Source: Cyclobacteriaceae bacterium
GTDB taxonomy: Bacteria; Bacteroidota; Bacteroidia; Cytophagales; Cyclobacteriaceae
Assembly: GCA_029881895.1 (NCBI GenBank)
Contig: JAOULS010000006.1
Coordinates: 1-35,236, forward strand
Direction: 5' to 3'
Length of the DNA: 35,236 bases
Shown: in pieces, positions 1-28,320 of the stretch
Numbering within the stretch: the stretch's first letter is position 1
Layout of the letters: each line of letters starts with the position of its first letter
Program-made: the position numbers and the translations under genes
Notes under the pieces: model-generated
What the model saw: only the letters and a program-made list of their open reading frames with translations
The model's database searches: none
Told to the model about the DNA's origin: nothing

Positions 1-63
1 GAGTATTGCTCTCCCCATCAGAGTCCTCTGCGAGAGACTCTGATGGGGAGCAAGAGACTCTGA
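1..63. repeat. Imperfect palindrome / large hairpin
   Basis: A perfect 15-bp inverted repeat (CTCCCCATCAGAGTC at 11-25, its complement at 36-50) encloses a 10-nt centre in which TCT/AGA can add three more pairs. The arms continue imperfectly outward (GAGTATTGCT at 1-10 against GCAAGAGACTC at 50-60), so the element may begin before the window. The string GAGACTCTGA occurs at 34-43 and again at 54-63. It lies just past the stop of the nuclease gene that ends at 120. No T-run follows the stem on the minus strand within this window, so a simple intrinsic terminator is not clearly supported. A dispersed REP-like palindrome is the alternative. Confidence 0.6.
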
Positions 64-119
64 GAAGGGAAAGAAAGAACCAATCAACCTATTTATATTT
101 ATGAACTACTACCCTTCTA

Positions 120-2963
120 TCACCTTCCACAAATACCTTTATACGGACAGTTTTCGCATTTTTTTTCGTCTTCTGTCTGATCAAAAGGAACAAAGGGAGA
201 ATACATTTCCGACAACAAATCCTTGAGGTAACCTTCAAACTCAGCTAATATGGGCTTTACATTTACTACCTGTTCTTTTTCTATTTCCAAATGATAATCA
301 AATTTTTTACTAAACGCTTCCTTCGTGTTAAAAACGCCAGGTAGAACAGCTCCTTTAAACGCTTGGTTATTCCGAACATAAAGTAAAGAATAGAGTATGG
401 TTTGCATCGCTGCCTTATTTCTTTTAGAAGCGTCTCGATCAAATAGTGATTGAACACTTTCCACTTTTCGATTGTCTTTGCCTGTTTTATAATCAATAAC
501 ACGAATCCGTTCTCCCTTTAAATCGATACGGTCAATAATTCCTTTCAAACCAATTAAAATTGTCCCCTCTCCCCATTCAACATCAACATTAATCGTGTAA
601 TCCTTCGATTCTAATCCTACAATTTCGAATGGTGCATAATCAGAATCTCGTTTTAAAACCTGGGCTACATATTTTTTGATTACTTCAAAAGCAAGTATTC
701 TCTTCCCTTCCAATTCCATGTTATGGATGTCTTCTGTATAATGTGTAGCGAATGCTTCTTTTACCGCATCATCTATTAACAACTTCAATTCTTTGAAATC
801 CTCCTTCTCAATTACAACATTGCGCTTTTGTGTATAGAGGTTTTCCATAGCATGGTGCAACAAATTTCCAAACACCATCGGGTCTATCTGATCCTGTAAT
901 TCATTATATTCATATATTTCAGCCACATAACGAAAATAAAATCGCAATCGACAATCAAGGTAGAGGTTTAATGCCGAAGGAGTTAAACGTTTCTGAGAAG
1001 CATCATCTGGAGATACTTGGTATTTTTTTAAGGCCTCAAAAACACTCTCCGATTTTTCTATTACAATAGGTTTTTGAGTTTTAATAGCTATTGTGTGAGA
1101 CAACGTAGTGAGTTCAACAGGTCTTTTACTTTCATATTTTAGTTGCTGGACAAACCTACTCAACTCGCCTCCACCAGTCACACCTCCTTCTGTAGTATAA
1201 AACAAATGTACAATTTCAGCCTTATGCAGCAGTCTATAAAACAAATACGCATAGATAGCGTCTTGTTGATCGAAAGTGGGTAAACCATATCCCTTTCTGA
1301 TATTATAAGGAACAAAGGAATGTCCTTTACCAGCAGAAGGAAAAGACCCTTCGTTCATCGAGAGAATGAACACATTTTCAAAATCAAGGTTTCGGGTTTC
1401 CAAAACCCCCATGATTTGAAGCCCATTTAGCGGCTCTCCTGTAAATGGAAGTCGCAACGATTGCATCATTTGACTAAACAAACGTATAAATGCGGCTAAA
1501 TCTAAATCGAGTCTAAATTGTTCAACAACTTCTTTAATTCTGTTTAACTGTGTGTAAAACTGATACGCATACTCTTTTTCAATTAAACTAACTTCATCAG
1601 TAACTGTCACCAAACCGATCACCTTTTGTAGGTATACAATAATATCACTAGTGTTTTCAACTTTCTGAAATACTGTCGGAATTATTAATTCGTCTGCCTG
1701 TAACTGATCAACGTTTATACGTATCCAGTTGTGTGATTCTATGTTTTTAATATTGGCAAGTGCTTGCTGGGGGATATACTGCTGAATAAGAGGATGCTTA
1801 AAGACACGGAGCGTATTTTTATAATAAAAAGTGCAGCGCCCTTTTGATTGTTCTTTTGATTGCTGCTGTAACTCTAAAAGAAGCTCTACTAGACTGTATA
1901 TAGGGGTGTTAACTAGTGGAAACCCCATTGTCACATTTATTTTTTTGATCGATTCGGGTAATGAATTTAACACAGGAAACAGTAAGTTTTCATCTGGAAG
2001 TACAATTACTGTTTTTTCAGGATTGAAATTTCCTTGTTTTTGGATCTCACTAATAATAGTACCAAGTAGCTTTACCTGTCCCGTTTTTTGGGCTACGGCA
2101 TTCAAATAGATAGGCGTGCTATTCTTGTCCTCAATATTAGTAGGATATGGCTCTTCTAAGCTTTTTGCAAATACCTTTTTCTTTTTGTACTCCCTCAAAA
2201 AACTACCAGCTTCTTGCCTCTCATCATACATATAATAGGCATCTACATCCCATTTTATCTCTGCTCCTTCCTCAATGAAATGAGTGATTATTCTTTCTTC
2301 ACTTGTTGTAAGGGCATTAAAACCAGCGAAAATAATGGGTTGATTTTTGTTGATTTTTGGTAAATTATTGGCTACCTCTTTATACACCAAGCCTGTGTAA
2401 GCACTATTTTTATTTTTTAGAGTAGTCGTAAATTCACTATAAATATCATAAAGTTTTCCCCATATCATTTGAAAATTCTTCTTCTCTTCAGAAGACTGAT
2501 CTGAAAATGTACTCCAAAACTCTACAATTATTTTTTTCTGCTCGTGGGTTAAATAATCAAAATAATCATCCAAAGCTTTTTGATTACTCAAGTCAGTAAA
2601 TAAATATTTAGCATCAATCAAATACTTGTCTATGTCTTCGAAATCTCCCAATAGCATTTCTCCCCAGTAATAGAAACGTTCAAAGCTTTCTGCACCACTT
2701 ATGTGCTTCCTATACACTTGGTACAACTCTACAATTAAGGTGAATTTATCTGTCGCTTGCAATCGACAATATTGTCGAACGAAATCCTCCATACTTAAAA
2801 TTGCAGGAGACCAAATTGGGACGCTCAATTCTTCGGCTAAATATTTTCTAAAAAACAGCCCCGCTCTTTGGTTGGGAAAAACCAACGTCACCTCATCTAT
2901 ACGATCGTCATATTTTGATTGAACGTGTTGTGCGATTTGCTTTAAAAACGGAAGTACTGTCAT
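120..2963 (-). CDS. AddB-like PD-(D/E)XK nuclease subunit of a helicase-nuclease
   Basis: This 947-aa protein is the likely partner of the UvrD-type helicase encoded 12 bp upstream; together they would resect DNA double-strand ends for RecA-dependent repair. The C-terminal RecB-family nuclease domain is clear: GNLLHHAMEN with H703, D811 in GIIDRID, the IDYKTG core with D824 and K826, and a QxxxY motif (Q854, Y858). C671 in YLDCRLRFYF together with C936-x2-C939-x5-C945 at the extreme C-terminus reproduces the four-cysteine iron-sulfur arrangement known in AddB. The N-terminus has FPNQRAG at 29-35 but no Walker A, so the helicase-like part is probably inactive. Length and both ends look complete. 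The family assignment is strong; equivalence to AddB rather than another RecBCD-like subunit is inferred from the cysteines and the neighbour. Confidence 0.9.
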   Translation of the reverse strand: MTVLPFLKQIAQHVQSKYDDRIDEVTLVFPNQRAGLFFRKYLAEELSVPIWSPAILSMEDFVRQYCRLQATDKFTLIVELYQVYRKHISGAESFERFYYWGEMLLGDFEDIDKYLIDAKYLFTDLSNQKALDDYFDYLTHEQKKIIVEFWSTFSDQSSEEKKNFQMIWGKLYDIYSEFTTTLKNKNSAYTGLVYKEVANNLPKINKNQPIIFAGFNALTTSEERIITHFIEEGAEIKWDVDAYYMYDERQEAGSFLREYKKKKVFAKSLEEPYPTNIEDKNSTPIYLNAVAQKTGQVKLLGTIISEIQKQGNFNPEKTVIVLPDENLLFPVLNSLPESIKKINVTMGFPLVNTPIYSLVELLLELQQQSKEQSKGRCTFYYKNTLRVFKHPLIQQYIPQQALANIKNIESHNWIRINVDQLQADELIIPTVFQKVENTSDIIVYLQKVIGLVTVTDEVSLIEKEYAYQFYTQLNRIKEVVEQFRLDLDLAAFIRLFSQMMQSLRLPFTGEPLNGLQIMGVLETRNLDFENVFILSMNEGSFPSAGKGHSFVPYNIRKGYGLPTFDQQDAIYAYLFYRLLHKAEIVHLFYTTEGGVTGGGELSRFVQQLKYESKRPVELTTLSHTIAIKTQKPIVIEKSESVFEALKKYQVSPDDASQKRLTPSALNLYLDCRLRFYFRYVAEIYEYNELQDQIDPMVFGNLLHHAMENLYTQKRNVVIEKEDFKELKLLIDDAVKEAFATHYTEDIHNMELEGKRILAFEVIKKYVAQVLKRDSDYAPFEIVGLESKDYTINVDVEWGEGTILIGLKGIIDRIDLKGERIRVIDYKTGKDNRKVESVQSLFDRDASKRNKAAMQTILYSLLYVRNNQAFKGAVLPGVFNTKEAFSKKFDYHLEIEKEQVVNVKPILAEFEGYLKDLLSEMYSPFVPFDQTEDEKKCENCPYKGICGR

Positions 2964-2974
2964 ATTTTATTTTA

Positions 2975-5900
2975 TTAAACGGATACTACTTCTGCCTTTT
3001 CCACATAAAACAAATAACCACTTACCTGTGAATACCCCATTTCTGTTAACAAACGAATGTATCTTTTCACTTGCTCTTTATCCTTTTCTCTAGGAACACC
3101 TGTTTTATAGTCAACAACTACCGCTTTTTCGTCAGAGATCATCACCCGATCCATTCTATACATTTCTCCAGACTTTGGTAATACGGGTACTTCTGTTTTT
3201 ACTTGCCATTTTTTATCAAACCAATTCAATACTTCTTCGTTTTTAAACATTTTTATAACAGCACTACTTAATTCCACTTTATCCTTTTCCGTAATCATCC
3301 CCTCAAACTTCATTGCATCTAATGCTTTGGGTAGTTGATCAGTAGTAATGATCCTCGCCATCAAGTCATGAATAAGATTTCCGTAATTTATACTAGATTG
3401 TTGCTGATCGGCTGTGGTATTAAAAAAAGTTTCAGAACTAAATTTGACCGCCATTTTATTTTGCCATGAATTGGAAATATATTGAAAAGGAATTTCATCT
3501 TTAACTATAATAGCTTCTACCTCTTCCTTCTCTCCTAATTGACCAAATCTGAAAACATTTGATTCTTCATTCCAACTACCATTAAGCGCCTTGTAGTTAT
3601 GCTTCAATACTTCAAACATTAAATCCGAAACACAAGTAATCTCTTTTCCTTGTTCTCCACTAAATGTAAAAAGATAATCTTCGGCCCTAGTAAGTGCTAC
3701 GTACAATAAATTAAAATTATCCATATACGCTTGTAACATTTCGTTGTAATAGGCTTTCTCAAACTCTGTTTTTTTCAAATTAGCACCATAATTAATAGGC
3801 AAAAATGGAATAGCATTAAAAGGAGGGCTGTCACTATCAATCCACATCCTTGTTTCTTTTAATCCTCTACTATCATGATCAATATCCCAATTGCAAAAAG
3901 GAACAATTACTGCTTTAAACTGTAATCCTTTAGATTTATGAATGGTCATTACCCTAGCGGCATTGGCTTGTTCGGGCAGTTTCACAAATTGCTTATGGTT
4001 AAATTCATCCCACCATTGTAAAAAAGAAGTGGTATCTCCCGTATGATTCATTCCGTACTCTAGCACAACATCTTGAAATGATTGAATATACGTGTACTCT
4101 CCTTCTTGTTTTTGTAGACCAAATATTCGGATTAACATCTCTATTAAATCGACAAGCGGAAGCTTTTTCAAATGCAACTGCTGTAAAAAAAAATCATTTG
4201 GTAAAAAATGTTCTATAGCATGAGCATTAAATATTTTATCAGGAACAGTAATATCACCTTTACTTGCCTGATAAAAATAGACCAAATTAGCCAGTGCTAT
4301 TTGGTCGTTATTGTTATTGAGGTATTGTAGCGTATGAATTAAGAGCTGAACAGCATGAGAGGCACCCAACATAAGGGATTCATTACTTACAATATTATAT
4401 GAATAGCCTTTTTTTGCTTTATCAGAATTTTTATAATCAATTAAATAATCAGCGATTAATTTTTCATGCTTCCCTCCTCGCACTAAAAAAGCGATCTCAT
4501 TCACCTTCACTCCACGATCTTGTAAATTTTCTAGCAACAAAGGGATTCTATCTAGGACTATGTCACTCCATTTTTTTTCTTCTTCTACATTATCTTTCAC
4601 AAAAGAAAAGGAAAGATAACCTTCATATTTTTCTTTATTAAGCTCAGGTTGTAACTGTGCTACATCTTCATACGCCTGTTCTATTAGCAATGCGTTTTTT
4701 TCCACCTCTTCCTTTTCTTCTCCTTCTAATTCTATTTTATCAATAAACAATTCCGACAACAATTTTGCACCCTTATTAAACAGGGTATTGTTTACCTCAA
4801 TTACGTTTTTTGCACTCCTAAAATTATTATTCAACCTTCTAATATCAGCATATTCACTTCCTATTTGGTCTTCGACTTTATGCTGAAGTAATTGCCAATC
4901 TCCTCCTCGCCACCTGTAAATAGATTGCTTCACATCCCCTACCAACAAGTTTTTATACCCCTCAGATAAGCTATTCTGTACTAAGGGAAAGAAGTTTCCC
5001 CATTGAAAACCGGATGTATCCTGAAATTCATCAATTAGATAATTTTTGTAAAACGCTCCTGTCTTTTCATATATAAAAGGGGTGTCGTTATCTTCAACAA
5101 TCTTCTTTAAAAAGGTATTAGCATCAGAAATTAACATTATTCCTTCTCGCTCTTTATATTCTATTAATTTCGAAGTCACATCTAACAAAATCCCAAAGGC
5201 ATACATGTTTTTTTGAGCCACTTGGGCGGTCGCATAGGCTCTCAATCCATCATTTACAAATTGTACCGACTCATTAAGAAGTAGCATCAACTTGTCTTCT
5301 ACTACTGCTGCAATACGTTCTTTTATATTGCTTTTTTTAGTATACCAGGCCTCTACGGTGTCTAAAGCTGGACGTTGATAACTATTCAACTGTAGTTTAG
5401 TGACATCAAAAGGAGGGTTTTGCAACTTTTGAAAATAACCAGCAGGTCCCTGTATTTTTCTAAAAAAATCTCCCACATTGAGCTCATGCTCATCCATAAT
5501 CGCAAAAGCTTCTTGCCCATACTTTTTAACGGAAAACTCAAAATCAGATGTGATTTTATTTAACTCAGCAAGAAACGATTTGAAAAACACTTTATCAGAG
5601 GCTATAGCAACCAATTCCTTTTCTTTCCCCTTATATCCTTCACTAAATAGTTCTTTGGCAAAACGGACGATGTCTTGTTTTATATCCCATGATTTACTGT
5701 CCTCTACTTTTTTTGAAGCAAAATTTATGAGCCATTTGGTTAGTACCTCATCCTTACCAACCTCTTCAAACATATCATCCACTACTTTATCAAGTACTTC
5801 ATTTTGATCGAGCTCCAGTTGAAAGCCACCATGAAGGCCTACTTCTTTGGAAAATGAACGAATTACCTTCTGAAAAAAGGCATCTATTGTAGCTATTGAG

Positions 5901-24340: not shown

Positions 24341-26047
24341 ATGAAATCTTCTCTTTCTTTTACTCACTTTTTCTCTATTGCGCTATTTTTATTTATTAGT
24401 TCTATTTGTTCAGGACAAAATAATGATCCAATGAATCCTAAATGGGACAAATATCATTCTACAGCAGAAACAAACACCCTCCTTGAAGGATGGGCAAAGG
24501 CTTTTCCCAATCTCACCAAATTATATTCCATTGGCGAAACACTAAAAGGCACTCCGCTAATGGTGCTTGAAATATCAAATAAAAATACTGGCGCATCTGC
24601 TACCAAACCCGCCTATTATTATGATGGAAATATTCATGCAGGAGAGTTAACAGGAGCAGAAGTAGCTTTGCATTATGCTTGGCATTTACTTTCTAACTAT
24701 AACAAAAACGAAAGAATTAAGCAACTAGTTGACACTAGGGTAGTATATATCCGCCCAAAATTTAATCCTGACGGTGCTGACTTAGCACTACTTACCCCTA
24801 CGGTGTTACGAAGCACCCCACGTCCTTATGATGAGGATTTTGATGGGCTTATTGATGAAGACCCTAGTAATGATCTTGACGGTAACGGCATCATTACCAA
24901 AATGCGTGTGAAAAATACGAATGGCAAATTTAAGATTAGTGACAAAGATTCTCGGATAATGGAACCTAGAGAAATAGGTGAAATGGGTGGCACTTATTAT
25001 GATATCTATACTGAAGGAACTGATGATGATAAAGATGGTACTTACAATGAAGATGGTGTTGGAGGAATAGATATGAATAGAAATTTTCCAAGAAATTGGG
25101 GATTAGAATTTGAGCAAAAGGGTGCAGGCCCATATCCACTTTCCGAACCAGAAACCAGGGCAACGATTGAATTTATTAATGCTAAAAAACACATTACGGG
25201 TGTATTCCACGGACATACTTCTGGAGGTTTTCTGTTTAGACTTCCTTCTACTACTAACTGGGATAATTATAATATGGCGGATCAAAAGTTGATTATTGAA
25301 TTATCAAGCATGTACACTACAACTACTGGACAACGAGTGATTCCAAGCTATAGCAATCCACGATTGCACCGCCATGGTACATTGATTAGCTGGTCGTATT
25401 GGGACTTTGGAGTAGTGGCCTATGTGCCAGAGTTCTGGGGTGGTTTTGTGGAGGATTATGACGGAGATGGCAACATTACTGAACATGATAAACTTACTTG
25501 GAATGACAAAAATATTAAAGGAGAAGGTTTTATTAATTGGAAAACTTATGAACATCCCGACCTTGGAACTGTAGAAATTGGTGGCTGGAACAGGAAATTC
25601 ACCTTCCAAAATCCTCCTGTTAAATACCTTAAATCAGAAATTGAAAAATACGTGGAATGGATGCTTTGGCTCGCTGAAACTAGCCCGCTACTAACCATCA
25701 ATACTACTGAGGTGACTACCGTTGAAAAGAATAAAGTGGTAATACTTGCCGCTGAAATACAAAATAGTGGCTATTTACCTACTAATATTACCCAAAGAGC
25801 TATTGAAGCAAATCTAAACCAGCCCGTAAGAGCTGTTTTGGAACTAAAAAATGCTGCACTGATTTCAGGTAAGTTAAGTACTGACTTGGGACATATTGTA
25901 GGGTCAAGGGATAGCGATGATGCTTCTTCTGATAGTAAAAGAAATGTAACCTATGGCATTAGAATCGATGGCAGTAATGCCACCGCCACGCTAACCATTT
26001 ACTCCGACAAAGGAGGAGTAGTGAGTGAAGTGATTAAGTTGAATTAA
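24341..26047 (+). CDS. Secreted M14-family zinc carboxypeptidase
   Basis: A 568-aa protein with a signal peptide (about 1-25). The M14 catalytic set is present: zinc ligands H99 and E102 in GNIHAGE, substrate-binding N246-R247 in DMNRNFP, a third zinc histidine in VFHGHTSGG (H292, or H290), and the catalytic glutamate E364 in VPEFWGG. Three acidic, calcium-loop-like segments interrupt or flank the domain (around 164-183, 228-238 and 372-381, for example YDGDGNITEHDK). The last about 110 residues form a separate beta domain. It removes C-terminal residues or amide-linked groups from an unknown, probably extracellular, substrate. The stop lies about 10 bp from the 3' end of a group II intron relic on the other strand. 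Confidence 0.9.
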   Translation: MKSSLSFTHFFSIALFLFISSICSGQNNDPMNPKWDKYHSTAETNTLLEGWAKAFPNLTKLYSIGETLKGTPLMVLEISNKNTGASATKPAYYYDGNIHAGELTGAEVALHYAWHLLSNYNKNERIKQLVDTRVVYIRPKFNPDGADLALLTPTVLRSTPRPYDEDFDGLIDEDPSNDLDGNGIITKMRVKNTNGKFKISDKDSRIMEPREIGEMGGTYYDIYTEGTDDDKDGTYNEDGVGGIDMNRNFPRNWGLEFEQKGAGPYPLSEPETRATIEFINAKKHITGVFHGHTSGGFLFRLPSTTNWDNYNMADQKLIIELSSMYTTTTGQRVIPSYSNPRLHRHGTLISWSYWDFGVVAYVPEFWGGFVEDYDGDGNITEHDKLTWNDKNIKGEGFINWKTYEHPDLGTVEIGGWNRKFTFQNPPVKYLKSEIEKYVEWMLWLAETSPLLTINTTEVTTVEKNKVVILAAEIQNSGYLPTNITQRAIEANLNQPVRAVLELKNAALISGKLSTDLGHIVGSRDSDDASSDSKRNVTYGIRIDGSNATATLTIYSDKGGVVSEVIKLN

Positions 26048-26103
26048 CAGTTTCTAGGTCGAGTAGGTAAAGGGGGGGGGGTATCACCCCTTTACCTCTC
26101 TCA

Positions 26104-26137
26104 GAACCGTACGTGAGCCTCTCGACTCATACGGCTC
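26104..26137 (-). ncRNA. Group II intron domain V, with domain VI just downstream
   Basis: The 34 nt fold as GAGCCGTA paired with TACGGTTC, a one-base and three-base (T and ACG) internal bulge, then GAGTC/GGCTC closed by a GAGA tetraloop. This is the standard domain V with the AGC catalytic triad in the first strand. Domain VI follows at about 26061-26100 as a long stem with an unpaired A in CCTACTC that would be the lariat branch point, although its loop holds a run of ten C on this strand. Confidence 0.9.
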
Positions 26138-26147
26138 TTCTTATGCA

Positions 26148-26429
26148 TCAACTTACTCTTAGTGAACGTATTCTCCTCTGCCAATGGGTAAAAAGATTTG
26201 GGCTTTTATAAGAAAATATTTTTAGCTTTTCTATAATTTCACCTATACTTTCTCTGAGTTTATGGCGCTATCTTACCCATTTGGACAGCCCTTATGTTCA
26301 ATAGGTGAAATTCATTATCAAACTTTCTTCCCCATACTTTCCATAGTAGTTTATCCAATCCCGTAATTTAGGGTTCAACTCTTCCGCCAGTCCGTGTAGG
26401 GTTGTTCTTGTTTTCCTATATAGTTGCAT
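26148..26429 (-). pseudogene. Group II intron maturase (LtrA-type) C-terminal fragment, frameshifted
   Basis: From an ATG at 26429 one frame reads MQLYRKTRTTLHGLAEELNP and on to LRDWINYYGKYGEESL, the start of the maturase-specific C-terminal domain, then hits a stop after NFTY. A shifted frame continues HLLNIRAVQMGKIAP. A third frame gives RHKLRESIGEIIEKLK and SPNLFTHWQRR, the hallmark PxLFxHW ending of LtrA proteins. At least two frame changes plus loss of the entire reverse transcriptase part make it a pseudogene. Confidence 0.88.
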
Positions 26430-27003
26430 TTTTCACAACTCTAAAACTATTTACTTTGCTGCCATTTCCCCTATTTGTGGATCAAAAGACAAAAATTATT
26501 CCCCTGTTCTTGTCCTCGCTTTATAAGGACGGAATCCTCTCTATGCCGACCACCCTGTAACCAATATTCAGGCAACCATTACAGTCTTCTTCGAATAAAC
26601 GATACCGATGGTTTTGATGTTATCTACGCATTTTTCGACACTTCATTCAAGGGTTCAATCATTCATCTCTCTTACTATTACCTTTCCTCATCGCTCACTA
26701 CCGCTTCGTTAAAATTGGCAGCATGAGGTGATTTGGCAACTCTCCCTGACGAGCGTTGCCGAAGGGTTATCCTACTTACAGAACTCCTTCATCTTAATTA
26801 CAGCATTCATCAGTATTGCTTACTAATGATTCAGGATACACCGTTAAAAATGCTCCTCGTAACTATGCTATGATTGCGCTTTTTGCCTTTCTCAAAATCA
26901 AATTCCTTACAAAATCTTTTGCGCCCTTATAAACCTTAATTGGTATTACTAGAAAACCCTGAATCTAAATCACATTAAAGATTTTTCAGTAGTTTAAATT
27001 TTC

Positions 27004-27038
27004 AAAAAAAAATCCCCAGCCATTTATGGTCGGGGATT
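27004..27038 (-). terminator. Intrinsic terminator of the thrS-infC-rpmI-rplT operon
   Basis: On the minus strand AATCCCC (27038-27032) pairs with GGGGATT (27017-27011), with a further CCAT/ATGG inner stem after a G-T pair and one mismatch. A run of nine T follows (27012-27004). It lies about 28 nt after the rplT stop. Confidence 0.88.
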
Positions 27039-27066
27039 ATTAATAAATATAGATCGTAGGTTTTAC

Positions 27067-27414
27067 TTATTTACTTACTTTTTTTACGACAGCTTCAAAT
27101 GCTGCTGGGTGATTCATCGCTAAATCTGCTAATACTTTCCTGTTCAATTCAATATTAGATTTTTTAACATTCCCCATAAATTGAGAGTAAGACATGCCTT
27201 GCAATCTTGCACCAGCATTAATTCTTTGTATCCAAAGTTTTCTAAAATCTCTCTTTTTTACTTTTCTATCACGATAAGCATAAGTTAACCCTTTTTCAAC
27301 TGCATTTTTTGCTACAGTCCAAACATTTTTTCTTCGACCAAAGTATCCTTTGGCTAATTTCATTACTCTTTTTCTTCTTGCTTTTGACGCTACTGCGTTT
27401 ACTGATCTTGGCAT
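27067..27414 (-). CDS. rplT: 50S ribosomal protein L20
   Basis: 115 aa with the L20 pattern: [59 protein letters not shown] and a C-terminal helical domain ending FEAVVKKV. It binds 23S rRNA early in large-subunit assembly. It is the last gene of thrS-infC-rpmI-rplT, 125 bp after rpmI and just before a strong terminator. Confidence 0.98.
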
Positions 27415-27759: not shown

Positions 27760-28320
27760 TTATTTCTTACTAGCTTTTGGAGAAAGCATAACATACATAC
27801 GTTTCCCCTCCAATTTTGGTAGCTGTTCTACCTTTGCATATTCTTCAACCGCTTGAGCAAATTTTAATAATAAAATCTCTCCCCGCTCTTTGAATACAAT
27901 CGTTCTTCCAATAAAATGCACATACGCTTTCACTTTTGCACCTTCTTGCAAGAAATTAATCGCATGTTTTAATTTAAAATTAAAATCATGGTCGTCCGTA
28001 TTAGGACCAAATCGAATTTCTTTAATCACTGTTTTTGCAGCTTTCGATTTAATCTCTTTTTGCTTTTTCTTCTGTTCGTATTTAAATTTAGAATAATCTA
28101 TAATTTTACAAACAGGCGGCTCAGCTTTAGGTGATATTTCAACCAAATCAAGGCTTTGTCCTACAGCAAGCTCCAATGCTTGCGAAATAGGATATACTCC
28201 TACTTCTACATTTTCACCTACCACGCGTACTTCTCGGGCAGTAATTTTATCGTTTACCTTATAGGGCTCCTCAACTCTTCCTCTAAATGGGCGCCTCCTA
28301 TTAAATCGTTGTTTACTAAT
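27760..28320 (-). CDS. infC: Translation initiation factor IF-3, ATT start
   Basis: The conserved IF-3 sequence runs unbroken upstream of the first conventional start (a GTG at 28224, inside the domain): [20 protein letters not shown], then [20 protein letters not shown] and the usual linker and C-terminal domain ([20 protein letters not shown]). In frame, the only plausible start before an upstream TAA is ATT at 28320, preceded by AAGGAGG with a 5-nt spacer. ATT is the known discriminated start codon of infC and allows IF-3 to repress its own translation. From there the protein is 186 aa. It lies 102 bp after thrS and 25 bp before rpmI. Confidence 0.93.

Follow-up and report, generated by a model that had tools for sequence, protein, structure and literature searches.

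On the minus strand of the 35,236-nt stretch of Cyclobacteriaceae DNA analyzed here (the window), positions 26058..26841 hold a degenerate group II intron of 784 nt in which both ends are present (5' GTGTATCC..., 3' ...CCTACTCGAC). With high confidence, we regard it as the relic of an ordinary bacterial group II intron that once carried an ORF, now able neither to splice nor to move. A full intron of about 1.9 kb, with domains D1 to D6 and a reverse transcriptase (RT)/maturase encoded in D4, would first have inserted between AACG and TATC of a dispersed repeat that lies beyond the rplT terminator. A single internal deletion of about 1.1 kb, with one end inside D1 and the other at the codons for the C-terminal part of the intron-encoded protein (IEP), would then have taken place, and nonsense and frameshift mutations would have accumulated. 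The intron ends may thus have survived because the deletion was internal. We infer that these events followed in this order, and that recombination or deletion at the intron 3' end removed the repeat's right half. Judging from its sequence, the intron would by now have lost both splicing and mobility.

A search with Rfam models returns two group II pieces on the minus strand and in the expected order: a domain I part at 26659..26775 (D1D4-2, RF01999, 71.1 bits, E 1.6e-12), then domains V/VI at 26139..26058 (RF00029, 60.6 bits, E 1.1e-9). That the resemblance arose by chance, or belongs to an RNA other than an intron, is practically inconceivable, since two independent families are ordered on one strand with maturase homology between them. 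The nearest relative is an intron of genome G168, from the same family as the window genome, which lies in two contig pieces (loci L089 and L088). It can be aligned with the window copy along the whole intron, terminal bases included (intron nucleotides 1-306 and 338-784, 76% identity), and encodes an RT (YADD motif, RVT_1 E 2.8e-34) as well as a maturase (GIIM). Both ends of the two introns are 76% identical, with the same 5' and 3' boundaries and the same IEP C-terminus; where they differ, the G168 intron keeps D3, the 3' strand of D1 and both the RT and the maturase domain of its IEP, and the window copy is without about 1.1 kb including these parts.

The alignment with G168 fixes the 5' end at 26841: homology starts exactly there, where GTGTGTCC of the relative is aligned to GTGTATCC of the window, and none is found beyond. 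The first bases are GTGTA in the window copy versus GTGTG in the nearest relative, and introns of other relatives open with GTGTGCC or similar. At the other boundary, ...CCTACTCGAC is common to further introns of the family, and flanking sequences diverge past it. Set against the boundary consensus 5' GUGYG / 3' AY, the window copy reads GUGUA and ...GAC, so that G5 of the 5' splice-site consensus is an A. A first-pass annotation of this DNA had placed the intron at 26058-26926. Its 3' end stands; its 5' end lies 85 nt too far out, in the dispersed repeat, and was rejected, as intron homology starts at 26841. With the repeat stretch running up to 26842 and the homology starting at 26841, the intron is 26841..26058 and the repeat is its 5' exon.

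The surviving 5' part of the intron (26536..26841, intron nucleotides 1-306, minus strand) contains the D1 5' strand and is 76% identical to L089, of which a 22-nt hairpin is missing. Another 5' hairpin, GCCG...CGGC of other introns, was considered as a loss by decay in this copy and rejected, L089 being without it as well. When loops were compared with the 5' exons, no confident position emerged for EBS1 or EBS2. Domain V (26104..26137, minus strand) is intact, with 34 nt, the AGC triad and the GAGA loop. It is followed by domain VI (26058..26101, minus strand), whose arms 26065-26075 and 26087-26097 are fully complementary and whose bulged A, at 26064, lies 7 nt from the intron 3' end. The first-pass annotation had already described the 34-nt domain V with its triad and loop and the bulged A of domain VI, and the covariance search it proposed does return the domain V match. 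Domain I, whose complete absence it had named as a refuting outcome, proved to be half there: the 5' part is matched by RF01999, and the 3' part is gone. A point against the relic reading is that the retained parts score like those of full relatives (D1, 71.1 bits versus 63.3 in L089, within the 63-107 bits that RF01999 gives among relatives; D5, 60.6 versus 60.2 in L088), which suggests either that the window copy is not old or that its decay has not been uniform. Domain V may look perfect because it is short and was strongly conserved in the parent lineage, rather than because this copy is active.

The junction of the internal deletion lies at 26535..26536 (minus strand), where intron nucleotide 306 directly adjoins the codons for FRPYKARTRTGE, a C-terminal segment of the IEP. 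The deletion took out the 3' strand of D1, the D2/D3 region, the 5' part of D4 and the RT domain. Compared with G168, about 1122 nt are missing; the figure is an estimate, as the contig break in the G168 copy falls at this same point of the IEP. In the relatives examined, this interval contains the 3' strand of D1. That strand pairs with the D1 5' part in the consensus fold, and the other D1-bearing relatives carry it except L049, equally deleted. Further along, relatives have a conserved core (GGCGGAU..CCGUAGUAG...) that we take to be D3, given its position between D1 and D4 and what is generally known of group II introns; on the same grounds, D2 and J2/3 presumably belong to the same lost interval. 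A covariance model of the D3 core, built from seven copies with L089 left out, gives 41-91 bits in every other D1-matching locus except L049, which is deleted much like the window copy; L089 scores 53 bits. Run unfiltered on 25900-27100 of the window, the same model finds nothing above 5.4 bits, and its top score falls outside the intron. The missing D3 escapes both Rfam models that match at this locus. Domain III has been described as a catalytic effector (PMC9275481).

Between the deletion junction and domain V lies a C-terminal scrap of the IEP, from the maturase/X domain (26148..26534, minus strand), supported by tblastn (E 2e-14), by alignment to L088 and by a Pfam GIIM match (E 3.2e-6, read with X at stops). 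It is interrupted by in-frame nonsense codons and by two compensating frameshifts. The first-pass annotation had likewise described a frameshifted C-terminal scrap; the RT that was reported there as deleted falls within the roughly 1.1 kb missing relative to G168. In full-length mobile introns, D4 encodes an IEP that has an RT and a maturase domain. Only the broken GIIM scrap and no RT is found in the intron, and we therefore file it as a relic and not as a mobile intron.

The 5' exon (26842..26949, minus strand) is the left part of a dispersed repeat of about 160 bp with terminal inverted repeats (TAATACCAATTAA). When the whole genome was searched with the locus, several places matched only 26949..26842, stopping there or just before. 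The repeat has the termini TAATACCAATTAA ... TTAATTGGTATTA, and its other copies continue as AACG|TATCACAAAATTAAATTCATAGGAAG...; this right half (TATCACAAAATTAAATTCATAGGAAG...) is absent beyond the intron 3' end. Complete and truncated copies occur in the window genome (G000: C294, C234, C195, C102, C190, C176, C47 and C100), and the repeat, which is MITE-like, also has copies in a genome of the same genus (G001). Instead of the right half of the repeat, the 3' exon is the terminal region of a gene for an M14 carboxypeptidase, a neighbor outside the intron (24341..26047, plus strand); 10 nt separate its stop codon from the intron 3' end. Excision of 26841..26058 would create the exon junction AACG|CTAG (AACG|CTAGAAAC).

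G001, the only genome of the same genus, has a different sequence beyond the rplT terminator. Neither the intron nor a full carboxypeptidase gene is present next to rplT there, and the carboxypeptidase gene is unmatched in that genome apart from its last 114 nt. To judge by its translation, the gene following rplT in G001 is a putative sugar phosphorylase; a search for it in the window genome matched only a second repeat family. In G001, a copy of this roughly 190-bp family immediately follows the rplT terminator (L108:3130-3320); about ten places in the window genome match it, including C297, C305, C214, C218 and C234. Elsewhere in the window, an infC-like gene (listed ORF 27760..28224) is probably longer than the listed frame, with a candidate AUU start at 28320 (28318..28320, minus strand) behind a GGAGG. 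AUU is the well-known unusual start codon of IF3.

The search for full-length copies proposed in the first-pass annotation was made in the window genome, a 312-contig draft that is 90% complete and could have missed an RT or a full copy in assembly. It gave no RVT_1 match and no second D1. Two further D5-like sites were found, a good one at C1:5468-5543, where D5/D6 stops 25 nt short of a contig edge, and a weak one on C309; a scan of the genome contigs with the exact D5 pattern had no matches. The IEP lineage itself is widespread, with at least 545 loci, the best 80 of which span many bacterial phyla with Bacteroidetes well represented.

Genomes of the same family offer intron copies in several other states. 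Two loci, L104 (G261, 2560-3191) and L053 (G031, 1007-1645), have D1, D3 and D5/D6 with only about 80-130 nt from D3 to D5, and either is more likely than the window copy to be a genuine ORF-less intron. In L099 (near 2031-2106) and L092 (near 2835-2910), an intron 5' end abuts the 3' end of another group II intron (...CTACTCGAT|GTGTGCTG...); these are tandem introns, one apparently inserted at the end of the other. Domain V of L047:964-1090 (G019) carries about 50 nt of inserted sequence in its stem and is otherwise intact. L049 (G032:C44, 1006-1503) and L082 (G183, about 1760-1864) are relics in which similar deletions join D1 or D3 to the IEP C-terminus. Finally, D5/D6 matches that have no D1 or D3 match within several kb (L041, L043, L051, L090, L093, L094, L096, L097, L098, L100-L103, L105 and L106) are probably, for the most part, 3' fragments.

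Besides a dead copy, the first-pass annotation had allowed for an ORF-less intron that still splices or moves with a maturase from another copy. Thermosynechococcus elongatus offers an example of such introns. The intact D5 and D6 and the presence of both intron ends would fit such an intron, and ORF-less introns mobilized in trans are documented (PMC2882425). The T. elongatus deletion, however, lies within subdomain DIVb (PMC2882425), whereas here the deletion reaches beyond D4, taking with it the 3' strand of D1 and the D2/D3 region. This extent contradicts a functional ORF-less intron: of the six domains that such an intron would keep, no D3 was detected in 25900-27100 and the 3' strand of D1 is absent. 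Also against it are the loss of the 22-nt D1 hairpin, the A in place of G5 at the 5' splice site and the lack of any RT domain among the 312 contigs of the 90%-complete draft. Furthermore, the downstream flank is unlike the right half of the repeat, so that splicing would not restore the repeat. Taken together, these points make a working ORF-less intron very improbable. One may also imagine a split intron, in which an RNA from this locus with the D1 5' part and D5/D6 would be completed in trans by an RNA bearing D2/D3. The tripartite psaA intron of Chlamydomonas chloroplasts offers a parallel; we consider such an arrangement extremely improbable here. The best explanation is a dead copy that has lost its RT, its D2/D3 region and the 3' strand of D1, and whose IEP is broken.

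A further hypothesis is compatible with a dead relic and concerns only the origin of its 3' flank. Homologous recombination between two intron copies may have produced a chimera, its left part deriving from a copy in the repeat and its right part from a copy adjoining the carboxypeptidase gene. This would explain why two precise intron ends are found with unrelated exons: the 5' exon is the left part of the repeat, exact to the splice site, and the 3' exon is not its right half. The divergence of G001 after the rplT terminator, together with the lack of any match there to the carboxypeptidase gene beyond its last 114 nt, is also compatible with it, and the same kind of exon shuffling was proposed for TeI4f/TeI4g (PMC2882425). 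However, no reciprocal product, that is, the other half of the repeat beside an intron 3' end, is seen among the repeat copies of the draft genome, and the same picture would result if a deletion happened to begin at the intron 3' end. We regard a chimeric origin as a real possibility, at somewhat less than even chances.

The window intron, taken as a relic, is an ordinary one, another copy of a known kind, and its significance goes little beyond annotation. For the Cyclobacteriaceae, it contributes a clear example of a group II intron that decayed through an internal deletion, with a possible scar of exon shuffling. It also illustrates that intact domains V and VI, even when accompanied by both intron ends, are no evidence of a working ribozyme. 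Truncated copies make up the majority of bacterial group II introns (PMC4028801), and a parallel to the window copy is TeI3n of T. elongatus, where an internal deletion runs from D1 into D4 and the ends are kept (PMC2882425). The two share this large D1-to-D4 deletion between preserved ends; TeI3n differs in belonging to lineage CL/IIB1 and in residing in a genome that has active donor copies, whereas none is seen in the draft genome of the window. The decay of RmInt1 into fragments such as FRE652 has been described in Sinorhizobium meliloti (PMC5894124). Like FRE652, the window copy is a long-lived inactive intron fragment without IEP function; unlike FRE652, which keeps DI-DIII and loses the 3' end, it keeps its ends and loses its middle. 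The mobile ORF-less introns of T. elongatus retain all six RNA domains, their deletions lying in D4 (PMC2882425). These introns of the TeI3 family resemble the window copy in the missing RT ORF and in the presence of D5/D6, but their six domains remain, whereas the window copy is without the D1 3' strand and the D2/D3 region.
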